Below, piece after piece: positions 1,594 through 58,526 of a stretch of 64,000 nt of DNA; the first letter of the stretch is position 1; the number at the start of each line of letters is the position of its first letter. The notes beneath the pieces are model-generated. The model worked only from the letters and a program-made list of their open reading frames with translations, was not told where the DNA came from and made no database searches. Origin of the DNA: Desulfurococcales archaeon (GTDB taxonomy: Archaea; Thermoproteota; Thermoprotei_A; Sulfolobales; Fervidicoccaceae); the NCBI GenBank assembly GCA_009904015.1, contig WYEQ01000012.1:62001-126000 (forward strand), written 5' to 3'. A program made the translations under genes and the position numbers.

Positions 1594-1679
1594 CTGGAGC
1601 GTATAAGGATAAACAATAATTGTTATTACCTATTTATTCTTATTGTTTGGTATTGAGTAATGTTTATGGGTGTTTACCT

Positions 1680-2066
1680 TTGAGCGAGGAACAAAAACAG
1701 GAGATTAAGTCAGAGCAGTCAAAGGAGGAGGAGGTTTACCCACAAAGAAAAATGGATGTGAAGGCACTAGCAGCGGTTGTTCCTCCAGCTACATCTCTGT
1801 TCTCGAGACAAAAAGTGCTTCAGGAAAAAAGAATAAGAGTTAGGTACGGGGAGGTCGAGGAGAACCAGATAAAAATTAACCCACAGCTAGCCTCGCAGCT
1901 TGGAATAACCGATACAGCCGTCCTGGTTGTTGCGGGCAAAAAGAGGTTCACGATGAATGTCATTATCGATGAGGATGTTCCGATGGACATCGTCATCGCA
2001 AATCCACAGTTAATGAAGGATAACGGGGTAGCTGATAACAGCATAGCGACCATCAGGAAATCGTGA
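1680..2066 (+). CDS. Conserved hypothetical protein with predicted beta-barrel domain
   Basis: Unrecognised protein of about 128 residues. I place the start at TTG 1680 (LSEEQKQE) because the frame upstream of it runs through an A/T-rich stretch that looks like promoter (TTATTACCTATTTATTCTTATTG). The N-terminal third is charged and probably flexible (KSEQSKEEEV). The C-terminal ~75 residues alternate hydrophobic strands (RVRYGEVEENQIKINPQL, TAVLVVAGKKRFTMNVIID), resembling an AbrB-like or double-psi beta-barrel fold; that is inference from residue pattern only. It is followed after 5 bases by a zinc-finger gene, so the two are probably co-transcribed. Confidence 0.6.
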   Translation: MSEEQKQEIKSEQSKEEEVYPQRKMDVKALAAVVPPATSLFSRQKVLQEKRIRVRYGEVEENQIKINPQLASQLGITDTAVLVVAGKKRFTMNVIIDEDVPMDIVIANPQLMKDNGVADNSIATIRKS

Positions 2067-9818: not shown

Positions 9819-10691
9819 ATGTCTTCATACCTGGAAGAAAGAGACTTGTCATACATGACGAAATACATACCTAAACCACTGTACAAGTGGGGCAACCTGA
9901 TAAAGTGGGATGAGGCAAGGCTATATGACTTGTCCCAGCCACTAGGAGTATTGACGCCGCCTTTCCCAACCTATCCGCCATTCAAGATGTACTGGATAAA
10001 GGTTTTGCCGGAGCACAGGGTGCAAGCCCAGGCAATAGAGACTCCATGGCATATTGGTACCCACATGGATGGACCACTGCACTTCGTGCCTGGGTCCCCA
10101 GGCATAGGCGAAATTCCGCTTGACCACTGGGTGGGGGAAGGAGTAATCATTGATATAAGCGATGAGGTCGAGGACCTAAGCATATATACAAGTGAGATGA
10201 TTGAGAAGAAGGCGAAGGAGCACAACCTCGAGATAAAGAATGGTGATATACTCATAATTCACACAGGGTACTACAAGTACCAGTGGGACCAGCCAACAGC
10301 CGATACAGTTAGGTACCAGCTAAAGCATCCTGGACCAACAAAGGAGTTCGCCAAGTGGTGTGTCCAGAAGAAGCTGAAGTGGACAGGAGTTGACGCGGTG
10401 AGCCAGGACCACCCACTGAACACCGTTATCAGGAGGGTTAGGCCCGACATCGCTGAGGAGTTCAAAGAGAAGTTTGGGAAGCCAGTGGATGAGGCTATGC
10501 CATGGCCCGAGAACTACCAGGTGCTACACACATATACGTTCCCGAGAGGAGTCTTCCACGCTGAGAACCTGGGCGGCGAGATAGGAAAGGTGCTAAACAA
10601 GAGATGCTTGATAGTAGGTGCTCCAATCAAGGTTGTAGGGGCGGAATCAGCCTTCGCAAGGATATTCGCTATATGCAACGGCCCTGAGTAA
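9819..10691 (+). CDS. Cyclase-family metal-dependent hydrolase
   Basis: Member of the cyclase/kynurenine-formamidase-like family (PF04199 type), 290 residues. The metal-binding signature HxGTHxDxPxH is present as HIGTHMDGPLHF, followed by NGDILIIHTGYY and AVSQDHPLN; these enzymes open cyclic amides or cleave formamides using Mn or Zn. It has its own promoter and terminator and lies directly upstream of fdrA. In that context a ring-opening step on a cyclic amide such as a hydantoin or related purine/pyrimidine breakdown product is plausible, but the substrate is inference. ATG 9819 follows GAGGT. Confidence 0.85.
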   Translation: MSSYLEERDLSYMTKYIPKPLYKWGNLIKWDEARLYDLSQPLGVLTPPFPTYPPFKMYWIKVLPEHRVQAQAIETPWHIGTHMDGPLHFVPGSPGIGEIPLDHWVGEGVIIDISDEVEDLSIYTSEMIEKKAKEHNLEIKNGDILIIHTGYYKYQWDQPTADTVRYQLKHPGPTKEFAKWCVQKKLKWTGVDAVSQDHPLNTVIRRVRPDIAEEFKEKFGKPVDEAMPWPENYQVLHTYTFPRGVFHAENLGGEIGKVLNKRCLIVGAPIKVVGAESAFARIFAICNGPE

Positions 10692-10696
10692 AACAT

Positions 10697-10719
10697 TTAA
10701 TTAATTCTTTTTTAATTAA
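10697..10719 (+). terminator. Probable terminator after cyclase gene
   Basis: TTAATTAA, a six-T run and a second TTAATTAA follow the stop by a few bases: an AT-rich palindrome plus T tract, the usual archaeal termination context. Confidence 0.45.
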
Positions 10720-10753
10720 AACCGGTTTTCTTTATTATCCTACATGCACCTAC

Positions 10754-10763
10754 ATTATAAATA
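10754..10763 (+). promoter_or_regulatory. Probable TATA box for fdrA
   Basis: ATTATAAATA lies about 30 bases before ATG 10790, predicting a very short leader or leaderless transcript. Confidence 0.5.
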
Positions 10764-10789
10764 ACTCTTAATGAGAGGTACTCTGAGAA

Positions 10790-12421
10790 ATGGGATACGT
10801 TAAAACAGTTGTGGAGAAAAACCTTGTTAGAGACAGCCTAGTTCTCATGAAGATAAGCGAGGACCTGAAGAAGATACCTGGAGTAGAGGAAGCTCTTGTT
10901 GCCATGGGGACCGAGACTAACAAGAAGCTAGCCATGGACCTCGGCGTGTTTACGCCAGATGTGGAGAAAGCCTCTGAGGGGGACCTGTTCATAGCTATCA
11001 GGGCATCAAGCCAGGAAGCGTTGGAGAAAGCCATAGCAGCGGCAAGAGAGATGTTGTCTAAACCAGCTGGTGCAGGTGAGGCGGAGTTCTACGATGTCGA
11101 TATGGCCTTGGCCGCCTTGCCGGACGCTAACTTGGCTTTGATATCCGTTCCAGGCGAGTACGCAAAGGAAGTAGCAATGAAGTTCCTTGAGAGGGGCATT
11201 CACGTCCACGTTTTCAGCGACCACGTGCCCAAGGAAGACGAAGTTGAAATGAAGAAATACGCGTTTGAGAGAGGCCTGCTGGTTCTCGGGCCGGGGGCAG
11301 GGACAAGCATTATAAATGGTGTCGCCATAGCTTTCGCTAATGCCGTTAGGAGAGGGCCTATAGGCATAGTTGCGTCAGCTGGCACTGGTTTGCAGGAGGT
11401 AAGCAGCCTAATACACAACCTGGGGAGCGGCGTCTCGCAGGGATTAGGTGTGGGAGGCGGTGATGTTAAGAACTATGTTGGCGGCTTAATGATGAAGCTT
11501 GGGCTAAAGCTCCTTGACCGGGACGAGGAAACAAAGGTTCTAACCATTGTTGCTAAGCCACCCGAGAAGGAGACGCTTGAATCAATACTACAGTACGTCG
11601 AGAAGGAGACAAGAAAGCCCATAGTGTTTGGGTTTATGGGCAAGTTCACGCTGAGCTTGCCCAAAGGCCTTGTGGGAAGAGCCAGTGCTGCTAGGTCTCT
11701 GCATGCCACAGCTCTCGAGGCGGTGAGGCTTGTTGATGAGGAACTATACGAAAGAGGCAAAGAGAAGCTAACGATCCAATACGAGAAGCTACTGAGCATG
11801 CTTCAGCCATACTGGGAGGAGTTGAGCCCCAAGCAGAAGTACATTAGAGGGCTGTTCACCGGTGGAACACTGACGAGCGAAGCGTTAACACTGCTGGACG
11901 AGCTGAAAATAGAGCTCTACAGCAACGCCCCCTTGCCAGGGCAGAAGCAGTTGCCAGACCCATTCAGAAGCGTTGGAAACACCATAGTGGACCTAGGAGA
12001 AGAGGAGTTCACAGCTGGAAGAGCACACCCGATGATCGACCCAACAATCAGGAGGCTAAGGCTAATCGAGGAAGCCAAAGACCCAGAGGTAGCGGTGGTG
12101 CTCATGGACTTCGTCCTGGGATACGGCTCACACGTAGACCCTGTCGGAGCTCATCTACCAGCCATAAAGGAGGCACAAAAAATAGCTGAGGCAGACGGCA
12201 GAAAGCTCGTTATCATAGGTTACGTCCTGGGAGTAAGCGGTGATCCACAAGGATACGAATCACAAATCGAGAAGCTAAGAAGCGTTGGGGCTATTGTCCC
12301 GCCAACGAACGCTGTCGGCGTCCTAAGCGCGGCTGTGGTAGCATCAAGAGGACAAATAAGCCGTGACATAGTAGATAAGTTCTACAAGGAGTACTTTGAA
12401 GCCTATATTAAAGCGAGGTGA
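10790..12421 (+). CDS. fdrA: FdrA family protein (predicted oxamic transcarbamylase subunit, AllF-like)
   Basis: A 543-residue homologue of E. coli FdrA (AllF), which shares folds with succinyl-CoA synthetase but, with AllG and AllH, forms oxamic transcarbamylase (established for E. coli). Visible: an N-terminal domain (1-100), a Rossmann-like nucleotide/CoA-binding part (VLGPGAGTSIINGV; GIVASAGTGLQEVSSLIHNLG; GLGVGGGDVK, about 165-230) and a C-terminal ligase-like part (GLFTGGTLTSEAL; LPDPFRSVGNTIVDLGEEEFTAGRAHPMIDP). I see no GHAGA-type phosphohistidine motif, in line with a non-ligase role. The C-terminus appears to lack a short NVGLxxFxxxLxxQGVxVVHV segment that is encoded separately just downstream. 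Spacing to that gene is 7 bases. Confidence 0.88.
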   Translation: MGYVKTVVEKNLVRDSLVLMKISEDLKKIPGVEEALVAMGTETNKKLAMDLGVFTPDVEKASEGDLFIAIRASSQEALEKAIAAAREMLSKPAGAGEAEFYDVDMALAALPDANLALISVPGEYAKEVAMKFLERGIHVHVFSDHVPKEDEVEMKKYAFERGLLVLGPGAGTSIINGVAIAFANAVRRGPIGIVASAGTGLQEVSSLIHNLGSGVSQGLGVGGGDVKNYVGGLMMKLGLKLLDRDEETKVLTIVAKPPEKETLESILQYVEKETRKPIVFGFMGKFTLSLPKGLVGRASAARSLHATALEAVRLVDEELYERGKEKLTIQYEKLLSMLQPYWEELSPKQKYIRGLFTGGTLTSEALTLLDELKIELYSNAPLPGQKQLPDPFRSVGNTIVDLGEEEFTAGRAHPMIDPTIRRLRLIEEAKDPEVAVVLMDFVLGYGSHVDPVGAHLPAIKEAQKIAEADGRKLVIIGYVLGVSGDPQGYESQIEKLRSVGAIVPPTNAVGVLSAAVVASRGQISRDIVDKFYKEYFEAYIKAR

Positions 12422-12428
12422 ATGAGAA

Positions 12429-12599
12429 ATGGTCGAGCCAAGAAAACTATTCAACACAGAAGTAAAGGTCGTTAACGTTGGTCTAAGAATATTCTACGAG
12501 GACCTTAAGAAACAAGGAGTAAAGGTCGTTCACGTCAACTATCAGCCTAGGCCGAAGCTTGAGAAGGAGCTGGAAAGCAAGCTATCAGAGCTTCTGTGA
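12429..12599 (+). CDS. 56-residue stand-alone NVGL-domain protein
   Basis: A short gene with start ATG 12429 preceded by GTGAATGAGAA, and stop TGA. The peptide contains VKVVNVGLRIFYEDLKK and QGVKVVHVNYQPRP. In bacterial FdrA/DUF1116 systems a very similar NVGLxxFAxxLxxQGVxVVHVxWxPP segment is, from memory, fused to the end of FdrA or the start of the DUF1116 protein; here it is free-standing between the two. It lies 7 bases after fdrA and 94 bases before the DUF1116 gene. It is probably a real small subunit, since it keeps an open frame, conserved pattern and operon spacing. Confidence 0.8.
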   Translation: MVEPRKLFNTEVKVVNVGLRIFYEDLKKQGVKVVHVNYQPRPKLEKELESKLSELL

Positions 12600-12610
12600 A
12601 TTTAAAATTA

Positions 12611-12618
12611 TCTTTTTT
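12611..12618 (+). terminator. T-tract after fdrA unit
   Basis: TCTTTTTT follows the small gene by about a dozen bases in an AT-rich gap; likely a partial or full archaeal terminator before the DUF1116 promoter region. Confidence 0.35.
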
Positions 12619-12693
12619 AATCAAATAATCAAATAAATTAACCGTCCCATACATAATCTATAATCTGTCAAAATACCTTGGAGTTGAAAGAAC

Positions 12694-13959
12694 ATGTCCC
12701 TTAAAGAACTGATTGAGGAAGCTAACAAAAAAGCAGTAGAAAACATGATGGAGGCAGAGCCGGTTCTCGTAGATGTGAAGCTTGCTAAGGACTTCATCCC
12801 TGGATTCAAGAGCGATATGATTCTTCACGCCGGTCCACCGATAACCTGGGAGAGAATGAGTGGCCCACTAAAAGGAGCTGTTATAGGGGCCTTGATGTAC
12901 GAGGGCCTAGCTGATACGCCGGAGCAAGCTGAGAAAATAGCCTCTAGAGGAGACATAGTGTTCAAGCCTAACCACGAGTTCGGCGGCGCGTGCCCAATGG
13001 CCGGCGTGGTAACACCAAATATGCCTATATACATAATTCACGACAAGAAGTTCGGGAACTACGCGTACAGCAACTTCAATGAGGGTATAGGAAAGGTTCT
13101 TAGATACGGAGCGTACGATAAGGAGGTAATGGATAGGCTAAAGTGGATGCACGATGAGCTGTTTCCAGCTCTGAAGGCAGCATTACACGAAGCGGTGAAG
13201 GACAAGGGAGGAATAGCAATCAAACCACTAATAGCGCAGGGCTTGCACATGGGCGATGAGGGTCACAATAGATACATAGCTATCACTAGGTTATTCTTAA
13301 TCGAATTAATCCCATACCTAATACAAGCTGACTTACCCAAAGACGTCTTCATGAGGGTCTACACGTTCGCTAAGAATAACAACTTCTTCACCCTGAACAT
13401 AGGTATGGCGGCAGCAAAGGCAATGACCATGGCTGCTCACAACATTAAATACAGCACAATAGTCTCTGTGCTAACCAGAAACGGAACCGATGCTGGAATA
13501 TGGGTAAGTGGCCTAGGTAACAGATGGTTCACGGCCCCCGCGCCTGTTCCGAAAGGAGTGTTCTTCCCAGGCTTCACGCAGGATGACGCTAACCCCGATA
13601 TTGGGGACAGTAGCATAACAGAGACTGCAGGATTCGGAGGATTCGCGATGGCGGCGGCCCCCGCTATAGTTAGCTGGGTTGGAGGTTCGGTGCAGTTCGC
13701 TGTGGAGAACACGAAGAAGATGTATCAAATAACCTACACGAAGCACAAGTACTTCACGATTCCGTACCTTGAGTTCCAGGGAACCCCAACAGGCATAGAC
13801 ATAAGATACGTGCTGAAGACAGGCATAACACCAACAATAAACACAGGCATAGCTCACAAGAAACCAGGAGTAGGCCAGGTTGGAGCGGGCATAGTCAGCT
13901 TCCCATTCGAGCTATTCAAAGACGCCTTCAAGGCCTTCGTAGAAACGTACGGGGCTTAA
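12694..13959 (+). CDS. DUF1116 protein (predicted oxamic transcarbamylase subunit, AllG/YlbE-like)
   Basis: 421 residues, the same length class as E. coli YlbE (AllG). Conserved-looking glycine-rich blocks are HAGPPITWERMSGPLKGAVIGAL, KPNHEFGGACPMAGVV, AQGLHMGDEGHNR, TRNGTDAGIWVSGLGNRWFTAPA, GDSSITETAGFGGFAMAAAPA and GVGQVGAGIVS. Function in E. coli: one of three subunits required for conversion of oxalurate to oxamate and carbamoyl phosphate. ATG 12694 has TTGGAG about 10 bases upstream. The N-terminus starts at a helical segment rather than the NVGL module, which is encoded by the preceding small gene. A T-tract (13966-13973) ends the unit. Confidence 0.88.
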   Translation: MSLKELIEEANKKAVENMMEAEPVLVDVKLAKDFIPGFKSDMILHAGPPITWERMSGPLKGAVIGALMYEGLADTPEQAEKIASRGDIVFKPNHEFGGACPMAGVVTPNMPIYIIHDKKFGNYAYSNFNEGIGKVLRYGAYDKEVMDRLKWMHDELFPALKAALHEAVKDKGGIAIKPLIAQGLHMGDEGHNRYIAITRLFLIELIPYLIQADLPKDVFMRVYTFAKNNNFFTLNIGMAAAKAMTMAAHNIKYSTIVSVLTRNGTDAGIWVSGLGNRWFTAPAPVPKGVFFPGFTQDDANPDIGDSSITETAGFGGFAMAAAPAIVSWVGGSVQFAVENTKKMYQITYTKHKYFTIPYLEFQGTPTGIDIRYVLKTGITPTINTGIAHKKPGVGQVGAGIVSFPFELFKDAFKAFVETYGA

Positions 13960-13965
13960 CACAAA

Positions 13966-13973
13966 TCTTTTTT
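13966..13973 (+). terminator. T-tract after DUF1116 gene
   Basis: TCTTTTTT a few bases after the stop codon. Read-through to the next gene remains possible. Confidence 0.35.
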
Positions 13974-14061
13974 ATTAAACCGGAAGTCTTGACTTTTTAT
14001 CTATAATTTTATCAAAGAGTACTATGTATGTTTTCAAGAAATACTTGATTTTGGAGGATAA

Positions 14062-14982
14062 GTGGTCTTGGGAAAGAAATGCCTGTATGCCTGGAGCCTG
14101 GGGAGCTATGCGAAGAAGATAATTAATGACAAGGGAGGCCAGAAAGCTCTTGTAGCCCATGTTTTTGACAACACGATTTATTTAAGGATGAACGACGATG
14201 AGTTAATCCTTATCTCGACTTATCCCTGGAGGTCTCCCTTTACCATAAACCTAGCTGGTATAGATTATGATGGTTTCTCCTTTAAGAGCATTGTTTCTCC
14301 CCTCCAAAAAGCAGTCTTGCTTACCGACAAAATCATGATGGGCGAGCTATCCATTGATATAGGGGAAGCGAGGGTTTACAGCGGGCTGGGCAAGCCAGCT
14401 AGCAGTCATGTTGATAACAATTATCTTGGCCACAAGCTGCGTTTATTACTGTATACTGCCGGGATTATCGCTGGTGGACTAAGAAATACCAGCACGCCTT
14501 ATCTGCACTCCAGAGTCTGTGAGTATCTAAATAGTGATGGGTTACTCAGCGATAATGCCATGGACTCGCTTATTGGGCTTGGCGAGGGCTTCACTCCCTC
14601 CGGTGATGACATCTATGTCGGTTTATCCTCAGCCATTACTTACACATACAGCTATGTCGATGAGAAAAGAGATGTCGCGTCGTCGTATCTATCGAGAATC
14701 AAGGAGGGAATCAGCGCTAGATTAAATCAAACGACGTGGGCTAGCGGCATGTATTTAAGGTACGCTCTGAGCGGTCTCTACGACGAGACAATAGAGAAAA
14801 TCCTGTATGACTTCTACTATGGGGATATACAAGACTTTTATTCGAGCGTTGTTCATTTGCTCAGAAGAGGTCATGAAAGCGGGGTTTATCTTGCCTTGGG
14901 GGTTTTGCTTGGGTTACTATCGATATATAATTCTTTTAAGCTCAACTGGACAAATAAGTTGTGTTCACTGCTGATAGGATAG
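14062..14982 (+). CDS. DUF2877 protein (predicted oxamic transcarbamylase subunit, AllH/YlbF-like)
   Basis: 306 residues with the DUF2877 hallmark GLGEGFTPSGDDIYVGLSSA (about 174-193), the motif shared by YlbF/AllH proteins. The second half contains TWASGMYLRYALSG. Third component of the FdrA-DUF1116-DUF2877 set, so the gene complement matches that of E. coli allFGH. GTG 14062 is chosen because GGAGGA (14053-14058) lies just before it. It is followed 26 bases later by xdhC. Confidence 0.87.
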   Translation: MVLGKKCLYAWSLGSYAKKIINDKGGQKALVAHVFDNTIYLRMNDDELILISTYPWRSPFTINLAGIDYDGFSFKSIVSPLQKAVLLTDKIMMGELSIDIGEARVYSGLGKPASSHVDNNYLGHKLRLLLYTAGIIAGGLRNTSTPYLHSRVCEYLNSDGLLSDNAMDSLIGLGEGFTPSGDDIYVGLSSAITYTYSYVDEKRDVASSYLSRIKEGISARLNQTTWASGMYLRYALSGLYDETIEKILYDFYYGDIQDFYSSVVHLLRRGHESGVYLALGVLLGLLSIYNSFKLNWTNKLCSLLIG

Positions 14983-15008
14983 CTGCTTCAAAAAGTTATC
15001 GGTGAGAA

Positions 15009-15878
15009 TTGTTGAGGAGGGAGAGCATATCTAACGAGGAGCTTTTAACGTGGATGTTAAGTAAGCTTAGCTCAAGGAAAAGAGTGGCCTTGATAACGAT
15101 TATCGAGAAGAAAGGCTCTGCTCCAAGAGGTGTTAGCGCAAAGATGGCTGTATCTGAGGATGGAGAGGTTATTGGAACCATCGGTGGCGGCGAGCAGGAG
15201 AGAATAGCTATCCAGAAAGCGCTTGAGGCAATAAGAGAGGGAGCGTCACGCACAATAAAGATTAATCTCTTCAGAACAGACCTCCTTACAGATGAGTTAA
15301 AAACAAAATCACAGATATGCGGAGGCTCGGTTGCATTGTTCATAGATGTCTTGACTCCAGCAAAAAGAGCCTTCATAGTAGGAGCGGGCCACGTGGCCAA
15401 GAGTCTGGCGGCCTTGCTATCAATGCTTGGCTTCAGGATAACGGTGATTGACAACATGCCTCAGTACGCCAATAAGGATGCGATCCCCATGGCGGATGAG
15501 ATTATAACACGCGAGGATCCCTCCGAGGTAATAAACAACCTCTCATTCAGCAAGGATGACTTGGTAATCATTGTTCACGGGGACGCTGATGTGGAGTACA
15601 AGGTGCTGCTAGCCCTCTACGGAAAGAAGGAGCTCCCAGGCTATGTCGGTCTCCTGGCAGGAAAGGGCAAGCTGCAATACATTCTCAAGAAGCTAGTTGA
15701 GCAGGGCGTAAGCAAAGAGTTGTTGATTGAGACGCTTTACTCCCCGGCAGGACTTGCTATTGGAAGCGAGTCTCCAGAGGAAATAGCCGTAGCAATAGTG
15801 GCAGAAGTGCTCAAGACACAGAGAAGAGCTGGGGGGGTTCACGAGAGCTTGGTTAAGGAGATATTGAGCTCCATGTAG
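15009..15878 (+). CDS. xdhC: XdhC/CoxF-family molybdoenzyme maturation factor
   Basis: 289 residues in two parts: the XdhC N-terminal domain (VALITIIEKKGSAPRGVSAKMAV, GTIGGGEQE) and a Rossmann C-terminal domain (AFIVGAGHVAKSLAALL, GYVGLLAGKGK, YSPAGLAIGSESPEEIAVAI). XdhC binds the molybdenum cofactor and mediates its sulfuration and insertion into xanthine dehydrogenase-type hydroxylases. The hydroxylase itself is not in the window, so it must be encoded elsewhere if the protein is active. TTG 15009 follows GGTGA (15001-15005). Spacing to the next gene is 12 bases. Confidence 0.9.
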   Translation: MLRRESISNEELLTWMLSKLSSRKRVALITIIEKKGSAPRGVSAKMAVSEDGEVIGTIGGGEQERIAIQKALEAIREGASRTIKINLFRTDLLTDELKTKSQICGGSVALFIDVLTPAKRAFIVGAGHVAKSLAALLSMLGFRITVIDNMPQYANKDAIPMADEIITREDPSEVINNLSFSKDDLVIIVHGDADVEYKVLLALYGKKELPGYVGLLAGKGKLQYILKKLVEQGVSKELLIETLYSPAGLAIGSESPEEIAVAIVAEVLKTQRRAGGVHESLVKEILSSM

Positions 15879-15890
15879 AGTGAGCAGGCT

Positions 15891-16526
15891 TTGAGGGGTA
15901 TTCAAGCAATAGTTCTATCCGCGGGCTTATCAACGCGCTTCCCGGGCAACAAGCTGTTGTTCCCCCTTGGCGGGATCCCCATTGTTGCCAGGACTATTAG
16001 AAGCCTAGTTGTGCAGGAGAAGATAGAAAAGGTAATTGTCGTTACGGGTTTCATGAGGGAGGATGTGGAGGCAGCAATAAAAAGACACACCGAGCCATCA
16101 CTCCTTGATAGCAAGGTGATTTTTGTCTACAACCCCATGTACAGGGAGGGGGGAATGAGCAGCAGCATCAAGAAGGGATTAGAGATGGTACCTAGGGATT
16201 CAGACATACTGGTTATGCCGGGAGACGTCGGTTGTATCTCAGCTGAAACCATAAAGGCCGTGCTTGACTATCATGTTTCCTCCACATCTCAGATAACAGT
16301 TGCATGTTATAAGGGCAGGCACGGCCACCCGATAATCTTTAAATCAACACTCAGAAACGAGCTCGAAGCAATCAATGAAACAACATATGGTTTGAAAAAA
16401 GTCGTTAAAAACCACATAAATGAGGTAAACTGCGTGGAGACAAGCGATCCAGGAGTCGTTCTTGATATCGATACAACCAGTGATATAGAAATATGTGAAG
16501 ATTTACTGATGAAAAAAGGTATATAA
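15891..16526 (+). CDS. mocA: MobA/MocA-like molybdenum cofactor nucleotidyltransferase
   Basis: 211-residue nucleotidyltransferase of the MobA/MocA/GlmU superfamily: LSAGLSTRFPGNKLLFPLGG is the NTP-binding signature, with VMPGDVGCISAETI (metal-binding Asp) and GRHGHPIIFKSTLRNELEAI. Pairing with XdhC points to the MocA role, adding CMP to the cofactor used by xanthine dehydrogenase-type enzymes (inference from context and family). TTG 15891 is the start. The gene is convergent with the next one, leaving only 9 bases between stops. Confidence 0.85.
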   Translation: MRGIQAIVLSAGLSTRFPGNKLLFPLGGIPIVARTIRSLVVQEKIEKVIVVTGFMREDVEAAIKRHTEPSLLDSKVIFVYNPMYREGGMSSSIKKGLEMVPRDSDILVMPGDVGCISAETIKAVLDYHVSSTSQITVACYKGRHGHPIIFKSTLRNELEAINETTYGLKKVVKNHINEVNCVETSDPGVVLDIDTTSDIEICEDLLMKKGI

Positions 16527-16535
16527 AGTAAGGAC

Positions 16536-17267
16536 TTACATCTCGATTTCATACTTGCTTGGTGGCTGTAGCTTATAGCTCTCCTTTAACAAGTCCTCGG
16601 GAGCCGGCCTCTCACCGAAGAATGGCTTAAGCTCCTCCCTCTTCTTCTGCTCCTCCCACATATCCTTTGTTATGTACCAGACGGCGGATCCTCCGAGCTC
16701 ATGTTGGTACTCCGGGTAGGCTTTTCCTCTGTGGGCAAAGTACATTCCTAGCCTGAAGCCGAATGGGCTCTCGAATGTGGCCCACCACTCCTTGGCGCCT
16801 AGGATGTCGAAGGCGTGTTCCAGCTTGGCAACATAGCCAGCAACGCCTATTCCTCCAAGCCTCTTGAAGGTTATGCTGTGGAGGCTTATTACTAGGTTCT
16901 CATCCCAGAACCTAGCGTTCCATACACCTATCAGCTCGTTTCCTTGTGTACCGATTATCACATATTCATCCTTGTATCTTCCCTGAGCCCATGCTAGAAC
17001 CTCAGCGTAAGTTCTAGTGGCTACCAGGTGGTAAAAGTCCCTATCATACTGAGGATCGATCAGTGGCTTTAGGGCCTTCAGGATTATTGGCGCTTCTTCT
17101 TTCTTGGCTTGCCTGAAGAGTACGACTTCGCCTTTCTTGGTTTTATAGATTTTCGGTGGGAACTCCGCCCTTGATACAATATTTTCTGAAGACCTCAGTA
17201 GACCTTCAATTATTTCTATTTTAAAGGGTATTTCCTCGACTGATATGGGAACTAGTGGTTTAGGCAT
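16536..17267 (-). CDS. Predicted GNAT-like protein, function unknown
   Basis: 243 residues. The middle part (about 45-195) resembles a GNAT acetyltransferase fold: a first strand with VVLFRQAKKEEAPIILKAL, a second half LIGVWNARFWDENLVISLHSITF, a GIGVAGYVAKLEHAFDILGAKEWWATFESPFGFRLGMYFAHRGK helix-strand pair and a late aromatic strand. The canonical QxxGxG/A pyrophosphate loop is only weakly matched (RLGGIGVAG), so acetyl-CoA binding is uncertain. The start is well placed: GGTGA lies 6 bases before ATG on this strand. It is convergent with the Mo-cofactor gene, so co-regulation with the ureide island is unproven. Confidence 0.55.
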   Translation of the reverse strand: MPKPLVPISVEEIPFKIEIIEGLLRSSENIVSRAEFPPKIYKTKKGEVVLFRQAKKEEAPIILKALKPLIDPQYDRDFYHLVATRTYAEVLAWAQGRYKDEYVIIGTQGNELIGVWNARFWDENLVISLHSITFKRLGGIGVAGYVAKLEHAFDILGAKEWWATFESPFGFRLGMYFAHRGKAYPEYQHELGGSAVWYITKDMWEEQKKREELKPFFGERPAPEDLLKESYKLQPPSKYEIEM

Positions 17268-19007: not shown

Positions 19008-20522
19008 CTAGTCCGCAGCGTCTCTTATGCCTATCTCCGTGATGGCGAAGACGGCCTCCCCCTCCGGCAGATGCGGCGCATCAACGACTCTCGCTATTCT
19101 CTTGTTTCCCTTGCTTTTTCTTAGCTGAACCCTGACGCCAGGTGCGTGGTACAGCACATGGCCGCCGACAGCCTGGGTTGGATCGCCGTAGAAAACATCT
19201 GGTCTAGCCATAACCTGGTTCGTGATGACCACGGCTATATTGTATATCTCGGCAAGTCTCATTAGCTGGTGTAGATGCCTGTTGAGTTTCTGTTGTCTAA
19301 GAGCAAGGTTTTCTCTGCCTGGGTACTCCGCTCTGAAGTGGCCTGTTACGCTATCTACGACGACAAGCTTGATGTTTTGCTCGGGAATTATCTCGGCCAG
19401 TTCCTCCACTATAGCCATTTGGTGGTCGCTGTTAACAGCCCTTATGTAGAGAATGTTCTCCATTGTTTTCTCCACATCTAGACCAAGAGCCCTAGCCATG
19501 CTTTCTATTCTCTCCCATCTAAATGTTCCTTCGCTATCAATGTATACTGCTTTCCCGTTTAATCCTCCCTTATCTGGGGGGAGCTGAACATTTACTGATA
19601 ACTGATGGCATAACTGCGTGTTGTGTAGCACTAGTCCTTCTGGGGATAAGAAGTTGTGGTGCCTTGGCACAACTAGGTCGTAGACATAATCGTTATGCTC
19701 CTTAACCTCCACTCTGTATACTCTTTGCAACTTTACCTCGTTGTTCATTATCGAGACTAGATTATCTCCTGGCTTAATCTCAATAGCAGGCTTCCAGATA
19801 AAGCTGGCACCATAGTATACTAGCACAGGGTGTCTAGGCGTTACCTCGAGCTTAAGGTTCCCTTCACCCTTAACCTCAACTATAAGTGGTACTTTTTCTT
19901 TGTAGATGAGGCTCGGGGAAACTTTTACGATACGTCCATTAGCATCAATGCTCTCCACGACAATATCGCTTGCTCTAACTATATATCCCCCATCAAACCT
20001 GGATTCGCCTCCAGTTTTCTTCTTCTCGTGGTACAGGCTCTCAATATCGTTAACCACAAGCTCGGCTCCACGGTAGTACTTAACAAGCGTTGGCCCTACA
20101 AAGCATTTCCCTGTCCCGTACTCACCAAAGAACTCCGTGATGGTTCTAGTTTCAACGCCTCCTCCAAGCAACTCGTCAAGCGCTTTGCTACCAGTAGTGA
20201 TTTTCCCTACAGTCAATCTCTCCAGCTTAAGCTCAAGGGCAGTTTTGAACCTTATGTTAAGCGCTTCTCTAGCAGCCTTTATAGCTTTCTGAGCAGTTGC
20301 CAGAGGTATGCCAATTGTAGCGGAAAGCTCCTGTGGACTAGCAACAGCTATGGACTCGAGAGTCGAGTAGCCGGCCTCGATCAGCTTCTGAGCCGTAGCG
20401 GGGCCTATGCCAGGGAGGTCTGTTAACGTCTTTATTTTCTGGGCTTCACTTTTCTGTGCATCTGGCTCATCCGCTTCCTTGTCGGTACTCTTGGTGGATT
20501 TACTCATGCGTTTATCTACCAT
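19008..20522 (-). CDS. radA: DNA repair recombinase RadA, interrupted by an intein
   Basis: Archaeal RecA/Rad51-family recombinase that forms filaments on ssDNA and catalyses strand exchange. The 504-residue precursor has an N-terminal helix-hairpin-helix domain ([20 protein letters not shown]), a Walker A motif GEYGTGK-T split after the lysine by an intein (residues 140-301), then extein TQLCHQLSV, Walker B LVVVDSVT and loop L2 region ([27 protein letters not shown]). Removing the intein leaves 342 residues, the usual RadA length. ATG 20522 has a strong TAAGGAGGGATC ribosome-binding site. Without splicing the ATPase site is broken. Confidence 0.96.
19620..20105 (-). mobile_element. RadA mini-intein (no homing endonuclease)
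   Basis: Residues 140-301 of the precursor, 162 aa. It begins with Cys (CFVGPTLV, block A), has block B TPRHPVLV, block [14 protein letters not shown] and block G ending GLVLHN, followed by extein Thr. These match a splicing-competent HINT domain with Cys+1, penultimate His, terminal Asn and Thr nucleophile. No LAGLIDADG endonuclease fits between blocks B and F. Insertion is exactly between the Lys and Thr of the P-loop. Confidence 0.92.
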
Positions 20523-42720: not shown

Positions 42721-43689
42721 TCACTCCATTAATAACAGGTGTTCATGAACCTTTAAAGCTATAGCCTTGGCGAGAGGAGGAGGCACGCTTTCCCCTACCA
42801 TATTGTACTGCTCGTCTCTTCCTCCAAGGAAGACATGGGTATCTGGATACCCCATAAGCCTTGCCTGCTCTCTTACAGTTAGGAATCTATCCTCGAAGGG
42901 ATGGATGAATCTGCTACTCCCTAGAACGGTTGGCGCGATTTTCCTTGGGTCGAGTCTTATTAGATTAGGTAGTCTGCGGCCACCATATCCTTCATAGTAA
43001 ATCAGTGCTTCCCCCCACCTGCTTCTCCTTATTCTTTTCTCTTTTCTCTGGCTCATAGAGGGTGGCTCGTGGTTTGGTGGGTAATCACCTGGGGGAGGAA
43101 GGCCCCTGAACGCTTCAAGCACGGTTATTTTCTTATCACACCTTGGCGGGTCTAGCTTTATGTTTGAAATAAAGACTCTTGTTCTCTTGCTAGGTGTGCA
43201 GTAATCCTCAGCCTTTAAGACATTAAAGTAAATCTCCCTATAGCCAGCCCTCGCGAACTCTTTTTCCAATGCGTCTTTCAGCCCATCCTCCATTATCGCG
43301 GGTACATTCTCCATTACCCATACCTCGGGCTCAATATCTCCAACGATTCTAATGAACTCCAATGTTAGCCTGCCGATAGGGTCTACGTACAATCTGTCTA
43401 GAGGGTCTCTCATTCTTCTCGGATTGCTTCCCGTAAAAGGCTCGCATGGCGGGCTACCAATAATAACATCTGGCTTCCCCGCAACTCTCTTAATAATAGA
43501 ACTATCAATACTCTTTATGTCCTCAGCGATCACTATGGACTCGGGAAAGTTATACTTGAAAGTCTTCGCTACTGATGGCTGATTATCTATTCCTAAAACA
43601 GTTACAAAAACACCAGAGTCGTGGAACCCCCTTGAGAAACCTCCTGCACCACAGAATAAGTCAACTACCCTGTATTTTTCTCTGCTCAT
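42721..43689 (-). CDS. C5 DNA cytosine methyltransferase
   Basis: 322-residue class I methyltransferase with C5-cytosine motifs: I VVDLFCGAGGFSRGF; IV IIGSPPCEPFTGSNP (catalytic Cys82); VI WVMENVPAI; VIII SKRTRVFIS; and GYPDTHVFLG near X. It transfers methyl from SAM to cytosine in DNA. No cognate restriction endonuclease is encoded nearby, so it looks like an orphan (or a solitary modification) gene. It overlaps the TFE gene by 29 bases and is followed by a SPOUT-like gene, embedding it in an information-processing operon. RNA as substrate cannot be excluded. Confidence 0.88.
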   Translation of the reverse strand: MSREKYRVVDLFCGAGGFSRGFHDSGVFVTVLGIDNQPSVAKTFKYNFPESIVIAEDIKSIDSSIIKRVAGKPDVIIGSPPCEPFTGSNPRRMRDPLDRLYVDPIGRLTLEFIRIVGDIEPEVWVMENVPAIMEDGLKDALEKEFARAGYREIYFNVLKAEDYCTPSKRTRVFISNIKLDPPRCDKKITVLEAFRGLPPPGDYPPNHEPPSMSQRKEKRIRRSRWGEALIYYEGYGGRRLPNLIRLDPRKIAPTVLGSSRFIHPFEDRFLTVREQARLMGYPDTHVFLGGRDEQYNMVGESVPPPLAKAIALKVHEHLLLME

Positions 43690-55025: not shown

Positions 55026-55874
55026 CTATCGTTTTACCACGTCTATTATGGCTTTCGCTATGTTTGCTTTGGTTGTTTTTTCCAGACCTTTGAACTCCGG
55101 TACGCCATTAACCTCAAAGAGGTAGTGTTCCCCCGTTATTTTATCCACACCTATATCAACGCTTCCGTAATCAGCTTTTATTGTTTCGACTGCTTTTACA
55201 CTAATCTCTGTAACTGTGTCTGTAGGGGTGAAAGGCTCTGTCTGTGCTCCTATTGCAACGTTTGTTCTCCACTCGCCAGGGGGAGCTTTTCTTTTCATGC
55301 AGGCTACAACGTCTCCTCTAACCACGAAACACCTTATGTCCTCACCATTTATTTGCACGTAGTCCTGTATCAAGTGAGCCTTCATCTGAGGTGAGGGTAT
55401 CTCCTCTCTATGCTCAACAACTATCTTCGCTGTTATATCGCTATCAATAATGCTTACAAGCCTACCCCAGCTACCTATCGGGGGTTTATCGATTAGAGGC
55501 TTCCGTCTTGAAGTCATATAGTCAATAGCTGTCTCCGGAGATAAGGCAAGGTACGTGGGAGGAATAGGAATCCCGGACTTAAAGAAGAGAGGCAGGCTCA
55601 GCGCTTTGTCCCCGGCTAGCAGTATTGATAATGAGCTGTTTATAGCTCTGTACCCACTAGCTTCCAGGAAGCTCGCTGAGTAAAGGGACCTATACATGCT
55701 GATAGACCTGATTAGTGCATAAGGAGCTAGTCTTTCTTCACCTATTCTAAACCCTTTACTAGATAAGTTTAAAAGCAGCACCCTCAATCCAGCGTTCTGC
55801 GCTTCTTCCAATAACCTTTTTTCTTCTAGTCTAATTACATCCGCTACGATTATGACATCATAATTGATACTCAT
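55026..55874 (-). CDS. argX: LysW-dependent ATP-grasp ligase (ArgX/LysX type)
   Basis: 282-residue RimK-like ATP-grasp enzyme that joins glutamate to the carrier LysW, protecting it for arginine (or lysine) synthesis. Segments: ALIRSISMYRSLYSASFLEASGYRAINSS, LFFKSGIPIPPTYLAL, KPPIGSWGRLVSII, DYVQINGEDIRCFVVRGDVVACMKR and YLFEVNGVPEFKGL. Its position behind argH and argG favours the arginine version. LysW itself is not in the window. Its stop abuts the ABC ATPase gene stop by one base. Confidence 0.88.
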   Translation of the reverse strand: MSINYDVIIVADVIRLEEKRLLEEAQNAGLRVLLLNLSSKGFRIGEERLAPYALIRSISMYRSLYSASFLEASGYRAINSSLSILLAGDKALSLPLFFKSGIPIPPTYLALSPETAIDYMTSRRKPLIDKPPIGSWGRLVSIIDSDITAKIVVEHREEIPSPQMKAHLIQDYVQINGEDIRCFVVRGDVVACMKRKAPPGEWRTNVAIGAQTEPFTPTDTVTEISVKAVETIKADYGSVDIGVDKITGEHYLFEVNGVPEFKGLEKTTKANIAKAIIDVVKR

Positions 55875-55883
55875 AAGATCGCC

Positions 55884-57320
55884 TTACTCATATACTTTTA
55901 CATTGAGCAGGTTTGTAATGCTTATTGAAAACTTTTCTTTTATTTGCATAAAATCGAAGAAGAGCTTGTCTAGCCTTTCGTTAAGACTCAGCAGGTTTTT
56001 CTTAACGAATTCTGGGTTTGGGCTACCTTTAACTTTTTTTGCTGTCAACGCTTTTTTCCAGTCAACCAGCTTAGTAAGCTCAACGTTTTCCTCCTTGTCT
56101 ATAAGCTCTACTGCTCTTGCTAAGTCCCAGTTAGTTTCTCTAAGACTTGATGCAACTTTTTGGTGAGCTAACCTATAAGGTATTCCTTTTGTTATGCTAA
56201 GTGCCTCGGCAATCTCGGTAGCCAAGACTCCTCCCTTCTCAATCAGTTCTACTACTTTTTCTTCATTTACTTTCGCTTTGTTAATAAAATCGAAAACTAC
56301 GTTGATGGCCTCTTTGCAAACACGTATGCTTTCCCAAACAACGGGGGTTAGCTCCTGTAAATCTAAGCTATAACCGGTAGGTAAACCACTTTCAACTATG
56401 CCTAGATAAAAAGAGTTAGACACTATTTTCTTCAATCTTGCTCTGGCTATCTCCAACGTCGCAGGGTTCCTTTTTTGAGGCATTATAGAGCTCGTCTGGA
56501 CGTGGTCTAGTGGTGGGCTAATTATGCCTATCGAATTATGAGTGAAGAGTATATAATCATTAGCTACTCGTGATAAGACGATGGATATCATGTAGAGAGA
56601 CTTCATCAACGCATCAAGAAATATCCTTGAACTAGTGGAGTAGAGAGTATTCTCGCTTATGCCAAGAAACCCTAGAAGGAAAGCAAGCTCATCCCTATCA
56701 ATCTCAGCGCTGGTTCCGACTCCCGCTCCGCTTCCAAGCGGGCTCTTCATGTATATTTTGGTATCATTAATCATGAGCTCAAACACGTCTATGAGCTCTT
56801 CAATGATGCTTGCTAAGTAATGAGCATAGCTAGTAGCTTGGGCAGGCATGGTGTGAGTATGAATTATGAATGGTGTATCTAGGCTGTTAGAGGCTATGTC
56901 AATCAATTTTTTTAGTTCTTTGTATAAAATCTCAACTAGCGTTGCGGTTTCAAAGAATATTTTTAGCTTTACAGCGGCTACTACATGGTCGTTTCTACTT
57001 CTGCCCAGAGGCATATAATATATAGATGAACCTACTTGTTTCTCTAAGAAGTTTTCCAACGCCTCAAATATATCTTCGAACTGTTTTTCTGCTAGAAGTT
57101 TACTTTTTACTGATTCATCCGTGTAGAGCTCCTGAAGACTTTTAATCAGCTTGTTTGCTTCTGTTTTGGGAATGTAGCCACGCATGTAGAGATGATACAC
57201 ATGGGCAAGTGTAACTAGAATCACGTAGTCCGCAATTTCATTATCATAGTTCATGCTACTTGTATAGCTTGTCAACGATATGTTCGCTTCTCCAAGAGCA
57301 GCTTCTCTGTATTTAACCAA
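55884..57320 (-). CDS. argH: Argininosuccinate lyase
   Basis: 478 residues. The fumarase-superfamily signature SSIMPQKRNPATLEIAR is clear, with GSGAGVGTSAEIDRDELA and HTHTMPAQATSYAHYL earlier. It cleaves argininosuccinate to arginine and fumarate. Between argG (12 bases upstream) and argX (9 bases downstream); one operon. Confidence 0.95.
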   Translation of the reverse strand: MVKYREAALGEANISLTSYTSSMNYDNEIADYVILVTLAHVYHLYMRGYIPKTEANKLIKSLQELYTDESVKSKLLAEKQFEDIFEALENFLEKQVGSSIYYMPLGRSRNDHVVAAVKLKIFFETATLVEILYKELKKLIDIASNSLDTPFIIHTHTMPAQATSYAHYLASIIEELIDVFELMINDTKIYMKSPLGSGAGVGTSAEIDRDELAFLLGFLGISENTLYSTSSRIFLDALMKSLYMISIVLSRVANDYILFTHNSIGIISPPLDHVQTSSIMPQKRNPATLEIARARLKKIVSNSFYLGIVESGLPTGYSLDLQELTPVVWESIRVCKEAINVVFDFINKAKVNEEKVVELIEKGGVLATEIAEALSITKGIPYRLAHQKVASSLRETNWDLARAVELIDKEENVELTKLVDWKKALTAKKVKGSPNPEFVKKNLLSLNERLDKLFFDFMQIKEKFSISITNLLNVKVYE

Positions 57321-57332
57321 TTCTAAGCTCCT

Positions 57333-58526
57333 TCAGAACTTTTCTCTTATTAGTTTTGCATTTATTGAGTGGTTACCCCATAGCTTTATGAATCCTCTAG
57401 CTTCGTCCTCAGTGGGGTACCATCCCTTGTTGTAATCAGCAATATCTTTTCTATAAAGACTGTACCTGCTCTTTCTACCAATAATCATTAATGAGCCCTT
57501 ATAGAGCTTCACCCAGACATCGCCCTCAACATACTTGTTTAGCTCCTCCCCTAATGCTTGCAATTCGCTTCTCAGCGGCTCATACCATAATCCACTGTAA
57601 ACAAGGTCGCTCCACTCGTTATCCATTAACCTCTTAAACCTATACTCCTTGGGAGTAAGGACCATTCTCTCAAGATCCTTGTGCGATTCGATGAGAATCA
57701 AGGCAGCAGGAGCTTCATATACTTCTCTTGACTTTATACCGACAACTCTGCTCTCAATCATATCGATTCTTCCAAAACCATTCCTCCCTCCTATAACATT
57801 AAGCATTTTTACCAGGTCTACTAGATTCATTTTTTCATCATCCAACGCTACTGGCTCTCCATTCTTAAAGGATATTTTGTGTATCTCGGGAGAATCAGGC
57901 GCTTTTTCCGGCGATACGGTCCACTCAAAGGCATCTTCTTCTGGAAAGTTTGATTCATCGTCAAGGGGTCCGCCCTCTATGCTCCTTGACCATAGGTTAT
58001 CATCTATGCTATACTTCTTATGCTCAATGCTGACGGGTAAACCCTTCTCCAAGGCATACTTAATTTCCCATTCTCTTGTTAACTTAAACTTCCTCACCGG
58101 GGTAAGAATCTCCTTATCAGGGGCTTCAGCCATGATGGTTAAATCGAATCTTACTTGGTCGTTTCCTTTGCTCGTTGAGCCATGCGCAATGGCGTCAGCG
58201 CCTTCCTTCTTAGCTACTAAAACAGCGTATTTTGCTATTAATGGTCTTGCAAGCGCTGTTCCAAGCGGATACTTATCTTCGTACAAGCAGTTCATTTTGA
58301 TGCATGGCTTAATGTAATTATCCGCGAACTCTTGTTTTAGGTCCATGAATACATGCTTCGTGGCTCCCGCTTTGTAGGCTTTATTCTCTATTTCCACAAA
58401 ATCGTCTTTCTGGCCAACATCTGCTGTGAACGTTATTACCTCTGCATTAAACTTTTCCTTCAGTAAAGCGATGCTAACAGTTGTATCAAGACCACCACTA
58501 TACGCTAGCACAACCTTCATAATCAT
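57333..58526 (-). CDS. argG: Argininosuccinate synthase
   Basis: 397 residues. PP-loop at the N-terminus: MKVVLAYSGGLDTTVSIALL (SGGLDT), AHGSTSKGNDQVRFDLT, EHKKYSIDDNLWSRSIEGGPLDD and LGEELNKYVEGDVWVKLYKG. It condenses citrulline and aspartate with ATP. First gene of the argG-argH-argX unit, divergent from a hypothetical gene with about 150 bases between. Confidence 0.96.
   Translation of the reverse strand: MIMKVVLAYSGGLDTTVSIALLKEKFNAEVITFTADVGQKDDFVEIENKAYKAGATKHVFMDLKQEFADNYIKPCIKMNCLYEDKYPLGTALARPLIAKYAVLVAKKEGADAIAHGSTSKGNDQVRFDLTIMAEAPDKEILTPVRKFKLTREWEIKYALEKGLPVSIEHKKYSIDDNLWSRSIEGGPLDDESNFPEEDAFEWTVSPEKAPDSPEIHKISFKNGEPVALDDEKMNLVDLVKMLNVIGGRNGFGRIDMIESRVVGIKSREVYEAPAALILIESHKDLERMVLTPKEYRFKRLMDNEWSDLVYSGLWYEPLRSELQALGEELNKYVEGDVWVKLYKGSLMIIGRKSRYSLYRKDIADYNKGWYPTEDEARGFIKLWGNHSINAKLIREKF

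Follow-up and report, generated by a model that had tools for sequence, protein, structure and literature searches.

A predicted oxamic transcarbamylase-type enzyme encoded with cyclase and molybdenum hydroxylase maturation genes in a Desulfurococcales archaeon

Oxamic transcarbamylase (OXTCase) remained an orphan enzyme until 2024, and, to our knowledge, the genes behind it have so far been demonstrated in a single organism. Here, we analyzed a gene island whose products include members of the OXTCase subunit families AllF (FdrA), AllG, and AllH, a cyclase-family hydrolase, and molybdenum (Mo) hydroxylase maturation proteins. It lies in a stretch of 64,000 nucleotides (the window; contig WYEQ01000012.1, positions 62,001–126,000, assembly GCA_009904015.1) from a metagenome-assembled genome (MAG) of a Desulfurococcales archaeon, 92% complete. 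In Escherichia coli, AllFGH converts oxalurate and phosphate to oxamate and carbamoyl phosphate, as assayed in the reverse direction, and has no sequence similarity to the aspartate and ornithine transcarbamylase (ATCase/OTCase) family (PMC11326118). Because the island encodes the families that have this activity in E. coli, we consider that it would, on balance, probably carry out the last steps of an anaerobic-type catabolism of nitrogen heterocycles, via a four-part enzyme forming carbamoyl phosphate.

The window genome resembles E. coli in encoding all three AllFGH subunit families, in their adjacency, in their shared invariant residues, and in possessing a carbamate kinase. Unlike in E. 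coli, the C-terminal module of AllF is a separate gene, AllG is only 44% identical to the E. coli protein (46% to YahG), the carbamate kinase lies outside the operon, cyclase, XdhC, and MocA genes stand in the island, and the genome encodes a xanthine dehydrogenase (XDH)-type hydroxylase but no detected AllD- or allantoinase-type genes. The E. coli yahE-yahF-yahG-yahI cluster likewise combines the AllH, AllF, AllG, and carbamate kinase families but carries the module at the N-terminus of YahG and an amidohydrolase, YahJ, in place of the cyclase and the Mo-hydroxylase. The predicted chemistry is also that of the catabolic OTCase and putrescine transcarbamylase fermentations with carbamate kinase, in which a ureido compound is phosphorolyzed to carbamoyl phosphate and then ATP is formed, although, as noted for E. 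coli, AllFGH does not resemble that family in sequence; no match to PF02729, the model of the ATCase/OTCase family, was found among the island proteins.

PMC12625717 reports allFGHK in comammox Nitrospira and in Nitrososphaerales archaea and reads these archaeal and environmental OXTCase-type genes, which as here lack upstream allantoin genes, as oxalurate degradation; the word cyclase is absent from that paper, and its passages on these genes that were consulted describe neither a link to a Mo-hydroxylase nor a separate 56-residue subunit. Archaeal allFGHK is already published, while the hydroxylase/cyclase coupling and the mobile module appear unreported: the literature searched, with most subscription journals outside it, held no report of that coupling, of the three arrangements of the module, or of the GNAT-fold neighbor described below.

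A sequence-only reading of the window had proposed an OXTCase-type system serving the degradation of a purine-derived ureide or similar cyclic amide, with allantoin breakdown in E. coli as its model. The allantoin route was not borne out. A family search of the window genome for an AllD-type (Ldh_2) dehydrogenase gave no hits, and none of its four amidohydrolase matches was an allantoinase by NCBIfam, so the allantoin degradation route lacks support within the limits of a 92% complete MAG. The OXTCase-type complex stood at the level of families and conserved residues. All seven genes initially described on one strand were recovered at their positions on the plus strand, with matches well above the Pfam cut-offs where models exist (Table 1), and two related loci (L036 and L051) show the same gene order.

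Table 1 Genes of the island, in window coordinates.
Gene product	Position	Strand	Evidence
Cyclase-family metal hydrolase	9819..10691	+	PF04199 E 3e-37; HxGTHxDxPxH metal motif
FdrA/AllF main chain, succinyl-CoA-synthetase-like fold, without C-terminal module	10790..12421	+	PF00549 E 3e-27
Free-standing 56-residue module	12429..12599	+	FdrA model NF004760 positions 506–552, E 3e-6
AllG (DUF1116), oxamate carbamoyltransferase subunit family	12694..13959	+	PF06545 288 bits, cut-off 27
AllH (DUF2877)	14062..14982	+	PF11392 61 bits, cut-off 25
XdhC-family Mo-hydroxylase maturation factor	15009..15878	+	Family match
MocA-like molybdenum cofactor nucleotidyltransferase (NTP transferase)	15891..16526	+	Family match
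Uncharacterized GNAT-fold protein	16536..17267	−	AlphaFold2 (AF2) pLDDT 88; PDB matches are acetyltransferases

The AllF, AllG, and AllH families are thus encoded side by side, as in a sequence-defined OXTCase. Several residues do not vary in the alignment of the archaeal proteins with the E. coli paralogs, among them H45, R137, H191, R193, R262, D305, E310, and H388 in AllG, a homolog of PDB 3clq; H413 and D450 in FdrA; and P179, D182, and D183 in AllH, which also carries the invariant motif G-x-G-x-G-x-x-P-x-x-DD and an invariant T224/S228. FdrA scored 398 bits over residues 4–520 against NF004760, under the cut-off of 433 bits; the simplest reason is that its last ~50 residues form a separate open reading frame (ORF). 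The PF00549 match was above its own cut-off. The three All proteins are most plausibly read as parts of an enzyme with an OXTCase-type reaction. Databases annotate FdrA instead as an ADP-forming acyl-CoA synthetase, in which case the island would activate an organic acid with CoA and no carbamoyl transfer would occur. Such a role would fit the fold similar to the alpha chain of succinyl-CoA synthetase (SCS), the PF00549 match, and the CoA-transferase and thiolase genes near some bacterial clusters. However, the phosphohistidine of SCS-alpha (G-H-A-G loop) is replaced by R in the window FdrA, and no conserved His occurs there in the FdrA alignment, making the mechanism of an acyl-CoA synthetase unlikely; as OXTCase activity was moreover measured for E. 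coli AllFGH, we rejected this function, which we regard as very improbable.

The 56-residue protein encoded between fdrA and allG corresponds to residues 511–554 at the C-terminal end of E. coli AllF and to residues 3–38 at the N-terminal end of E. coli YahG, so that the AllF C-terminal module of OXTCase is present as a separate gene. Compared with its G131 counterpart, this gene differs at 9, 8, and 34 first, second, and third codon positions, respectively, indicating a translated gene under purifying selection. Profile searches covering ~100 AllG loci of archaea and bacteria, together with two E. coli loci, revealed three arrangements. The module stands alone in 34 AllG rows, the window among them; 22 of these rows fall in the archaeal part of the tree, where nearly all loci have this form. 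In 28 rows, E. coli AllF among them, it is fused to the C-terminus of FdrA, and in 32, among them E. coli YahG and those of many bacteria, to the N-terminus of AllG. Two loci, L105 (Sphaerochaeta) and L124 (Caldiserica), encode a single FdrA-module-AllG protein of ~1040 aa. Parsimony on the AllG tree requires at least 11 switches between arrangements. A natural FdrA-module-AllG fusion folded confidently as a single AF2 model (predicted local distance difference test (pLDDT) 88.6, predicted template modeling score (pTM) 0.83), which confirmed both folds (3clq and 3dmy). Since the domain moves between FdrA and AllG yet stays with the complex, it is most readily understood as a component of the enzyme that would touch both partners, and we propose the 56-residue protein as the fourth part of the complex. 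The three natural arrangements and the natural fusion offer a direct way into the assembly of the complex.

The cyclase has the family score and metal motif of the isatin hydrolase/kynurenine formamidase family but only weak similarity to solved enzymes, and we propose that it acts as a ring-opening amide hydrolase. Of 398 genomes sampled from this phylum, 22 encode AllG, the window genome among them, and in eight of these 22, again including the window genome, the cyclase of the cluster is the sole PF04199 gene found. The XDH-type hydroxylase that had been expected elsewhere in the genome from XdhC and MocA was located on another contig, C23, where the L, M, and S subunits are encoded together (L047, 7088–10797); the Mo-binding, FAD, and [2Fe-2S] subunits were assigned from Pfam matches of L itself and, for M and S, of their homologs in L034. 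The genome carries one such enzyme, and its XdhL is 58% identical to the cluster-adjacent XdhL of L034, making it an ortholog of the copy that relatives carry beside the cluster. The Glu/Arg/Glu residues of XdhL align with those of E. coli XdhA, which is compatible with an XDH, but PaoC has some of them. In G052, an AllG-negative member of the same family, the Mo-hydroxylase operon (L166, 8359–10128) retains full-length XdhM and XdhS with XdhL reduced to its last 135 residues, as if the hydroxylase were decaying along with the loss of AllFGH. Separately, a 148-aa protein in the window (1620–2066, plus strand) gave a weak match, below the Pfam cut-off, to a molybdopterin dinucleotide-binding domain.

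We then compared 7–20 kb regions around AllG from 21 genomes of this archaeal phylum and from 80 named loci in public genomes, counting cluster members where at least 7.5 kb was available on both sides of AllG. Among the 16 archaeal loci retained, FdrA was found in 16, the module in 16, AllH in 15, the cyclase in 14, XdhL in 12, and an NCS2 permease in two; among the 34 bacterial loci, the numbers were 32 for FdrA, 34 for the module, 30 for the cyclase, 27 for XdhL, and 18 for the NCS2 permease. As the loci were picked by AllG similarity, these fractions describe AllG neighborhoods and are not a background-corrected test. The AllFGH cluster, accompanied by an XDH-type Mo-hydroxylase, the cyclase, and in many cases a purine-type permease, is a recurrent arrangement in both archaea and bacteria. 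Bacterial clusters also repeatedly contain amidase, CN-hydrolase, and CoA-transferase III genes, and several include PucR regulators. Four archaeal loci of family f19 (L034, L035, L040, and L028) have a second XdhL copy, ~50% identical, near the cluster, as well as genes for a methylmalonyl-CoA-decarboxylase-like alpha subunit and OAD-beta; PrpD- and PrpB-like genes occur in L028, L035, and L040.

In the pathway that we propose, the three-subunit Mo-hydroxylase, matured by XdhC and MocA, would oxidize the ring, and the cyclase would hydrolyze a cyclic imide, in the simplest case parabanate, to an N-carbamoyl amide acid, in that case oxalurate. AllF, the 56-residue module, AllG, and AllH would together split the ureido acid with phosphate into carbamoyl phosphate and oxamate or an analogous amide acid. 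Carbamoyl phosphate could then be converted to ATP, NH3, and CO2 by carbamate kinase and/or to citrulline by OTCase, from which ArgG and ArgH would make arginine. For the first step, we infer a Mo-hydroxylase route to parabanate, for example from hydantoin. The opening of parabanate to oxalurate also occurs spontaneously at neutral pH (PMC5703782), and the title of a 1965 paper in the reference list of PMC6022934 describes an oxamate transcarbamylase induced by parabanic acid.

The main rival substrate is barbiturate, opened to ureidomalonate. In such an oxidative pyrimidine pathway, the Mo-hydroxylase would convert uracil (or thymine) to barbiturate (or its methyl analog), the cyclase would produce ureidomalonate, and the AllFGH-like complex would release malonamate and carbamoyl phosphate. 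By our own chemical reasoning, ureidomalonate is oxalurate plus one CH2, and the route could account for the decarboxylase alpha-like carboxyltransferase, OAD-beta, and PrpD-/PrpB-like genes near some archaeal clusters, for the carboxyltransferase genes near 9 of 28 archaeal loci, and for the recurrent bacterial amidase and CoA-transferase III genes. Other neighbors point away from pyrimidines. The two cluster permeases tested scored highest with the xanthine permease PbuX and far better with xanthine than with uracil models (247 bits against 86 for one, 221 against 118 for the other), below cut-off; the XdhL tested scored highest with xanthine dehydrogenase XdhA models, also below cut-off; and the top match of the CoA-transferase III tested was CoA:oxalate CoA-transferase, again below cut-off and close to other types. 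The PucR regulators point to purines, and no biotin carboxylase-type domain was detected in the window genome. We therefore consider the pyrimidine route unlikely.

The absence of a carbamate kinase from the window, noted initially, holds for the window ORFs that were annotated (most, not all), but a carbamate kinase is encoded on the same contig, 32.5 kb upstream of the island (C11:38366–39295, 404 bits, cut-off 358). Citrulline is a possible outlet, as suggested at the outset: OTCase, ArgG, and ArgH are present, and searches of the window genome for the large and small chains of carbamoyl phosphate synthetase (CPS) found neither. LysX-like, ArgH, and ArgG genes of lysine/arginine biosynthesis stand together in the window (55026–58526, minus strand). 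Among AllG-positive and AllG-negative genomes, respectively, an XdhL ortholog (full length, at least 44% identity) occurs in 17/22 vs 0/20 (p 1e-7), carbamate kinase (at least 260 bits) in 22/22 vs 9/20 (p 4e-5), and the CPS small chain in 3/22 vs 13/20 (p 1e-3), by Fisher tests that take no account of shared ancestry. The kinase lies near the cluster in G381, G147, G329, and G219.

A carbamate kinase has been proposed as the source of carbamoyl phosphate in Pyrococcus (PMC6022934), whereas in Thermococcus kodakarensis, which lacks CPS, a phosphorolytic OTCase supplies it and carbamate kinase is not sufficient (PMC13260591). The archaeal source without CPS has only recently been settled, for T. 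kodakarensis, and AllFGH is an alternative candidate in Desulfurococcales-like archaea, where, by analogy, it could take the role of that OTCase. The complex might even be mainly biosynthetic, providing carbamoyl phosphate for arginine, a view compatible with the catabolic one and in line with the T. kodakarensis precedent, with the lack of detected CPS chains beside OTCase, ArgG, and ArgH, and with the missing CPS small chain in 19/22 AllG-positive archaeal genomes. Yet AllG-negative relatives, G052 and G002 among them, also have carbamate kinase and no CPS small chain, so that AllFGH is not required, and the bacterial clusters look catabolic. A mainly biosynthetic role thus seems quite unlikely to us.

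Besides the shared ancestry ignored by the Fisher tests, several points weigh against the heterocycle catabolism that we favor. The activity of the archaeal AllFGH is predicted from family membership; the assayed E. coli AllG is a long-branch relative and not the nearest ortholog; and the conserved AllFGH residues are also present in YahFG/YahE and do not discriminate the substrate. The Mo-hydroxylase is encoded off the contig of the window, whereas in most relatives it stands beside the cluster, and absences from a 92% complete genome are provisional. Finally, AllG-negative relatives with carbamate kinase mostly lack CPS, so the kinase is not specific to this pathway; as it may itself be the source of carbamoyl phosphate, its co-occurrence with AllG supports the pathway only weakly.

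The cluster suggests that the OXTCase family has a role well outside the breakdown of allantoin, in which it is linked with Mo-hydroxylases and a ring-opening hydrolase. More tentatively, the Mo-hydroxylase, the cyclase, and AllF/module/AllG/AllH may constitute a widespread, undescribed catabolic module of hyperthermophilic archaea and many bacteria, with the 56-residue protein as an obligate part and, in archaea lacking CPS, with carbamoyl phosphate serving both ATP and arginine formation.

The eighth gene of Table 1, on the opposite strand, was absent from the first gene list yet is part of the island. Its product has a 70% identical counterpart in L036 and homologs in 28 of the fetched AllG loci from archaea and bacteria. 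It had no match in Pfam or NCBIfam, and its AF2 model resembles GNAT acetyltransferases. In several phyla, a thiolase and a ChsH2/DUF35-type zinc-ribbon protein are encoded beside or near this gene (L053, L061, L083, L105, L122, L124, and L129).

Elsewhere in the window, the RadA gene (19008–20522, minus strand) contains an apparent in-frame intein (Pfam Intein_splicing, aa 260–301), just ahead of the main Rad51 match, and a DNA cytosine-5 methyltransferase-like gene (42721–43689, minus strand) matches TIGR00675 with 126 bits, above the cut-off.

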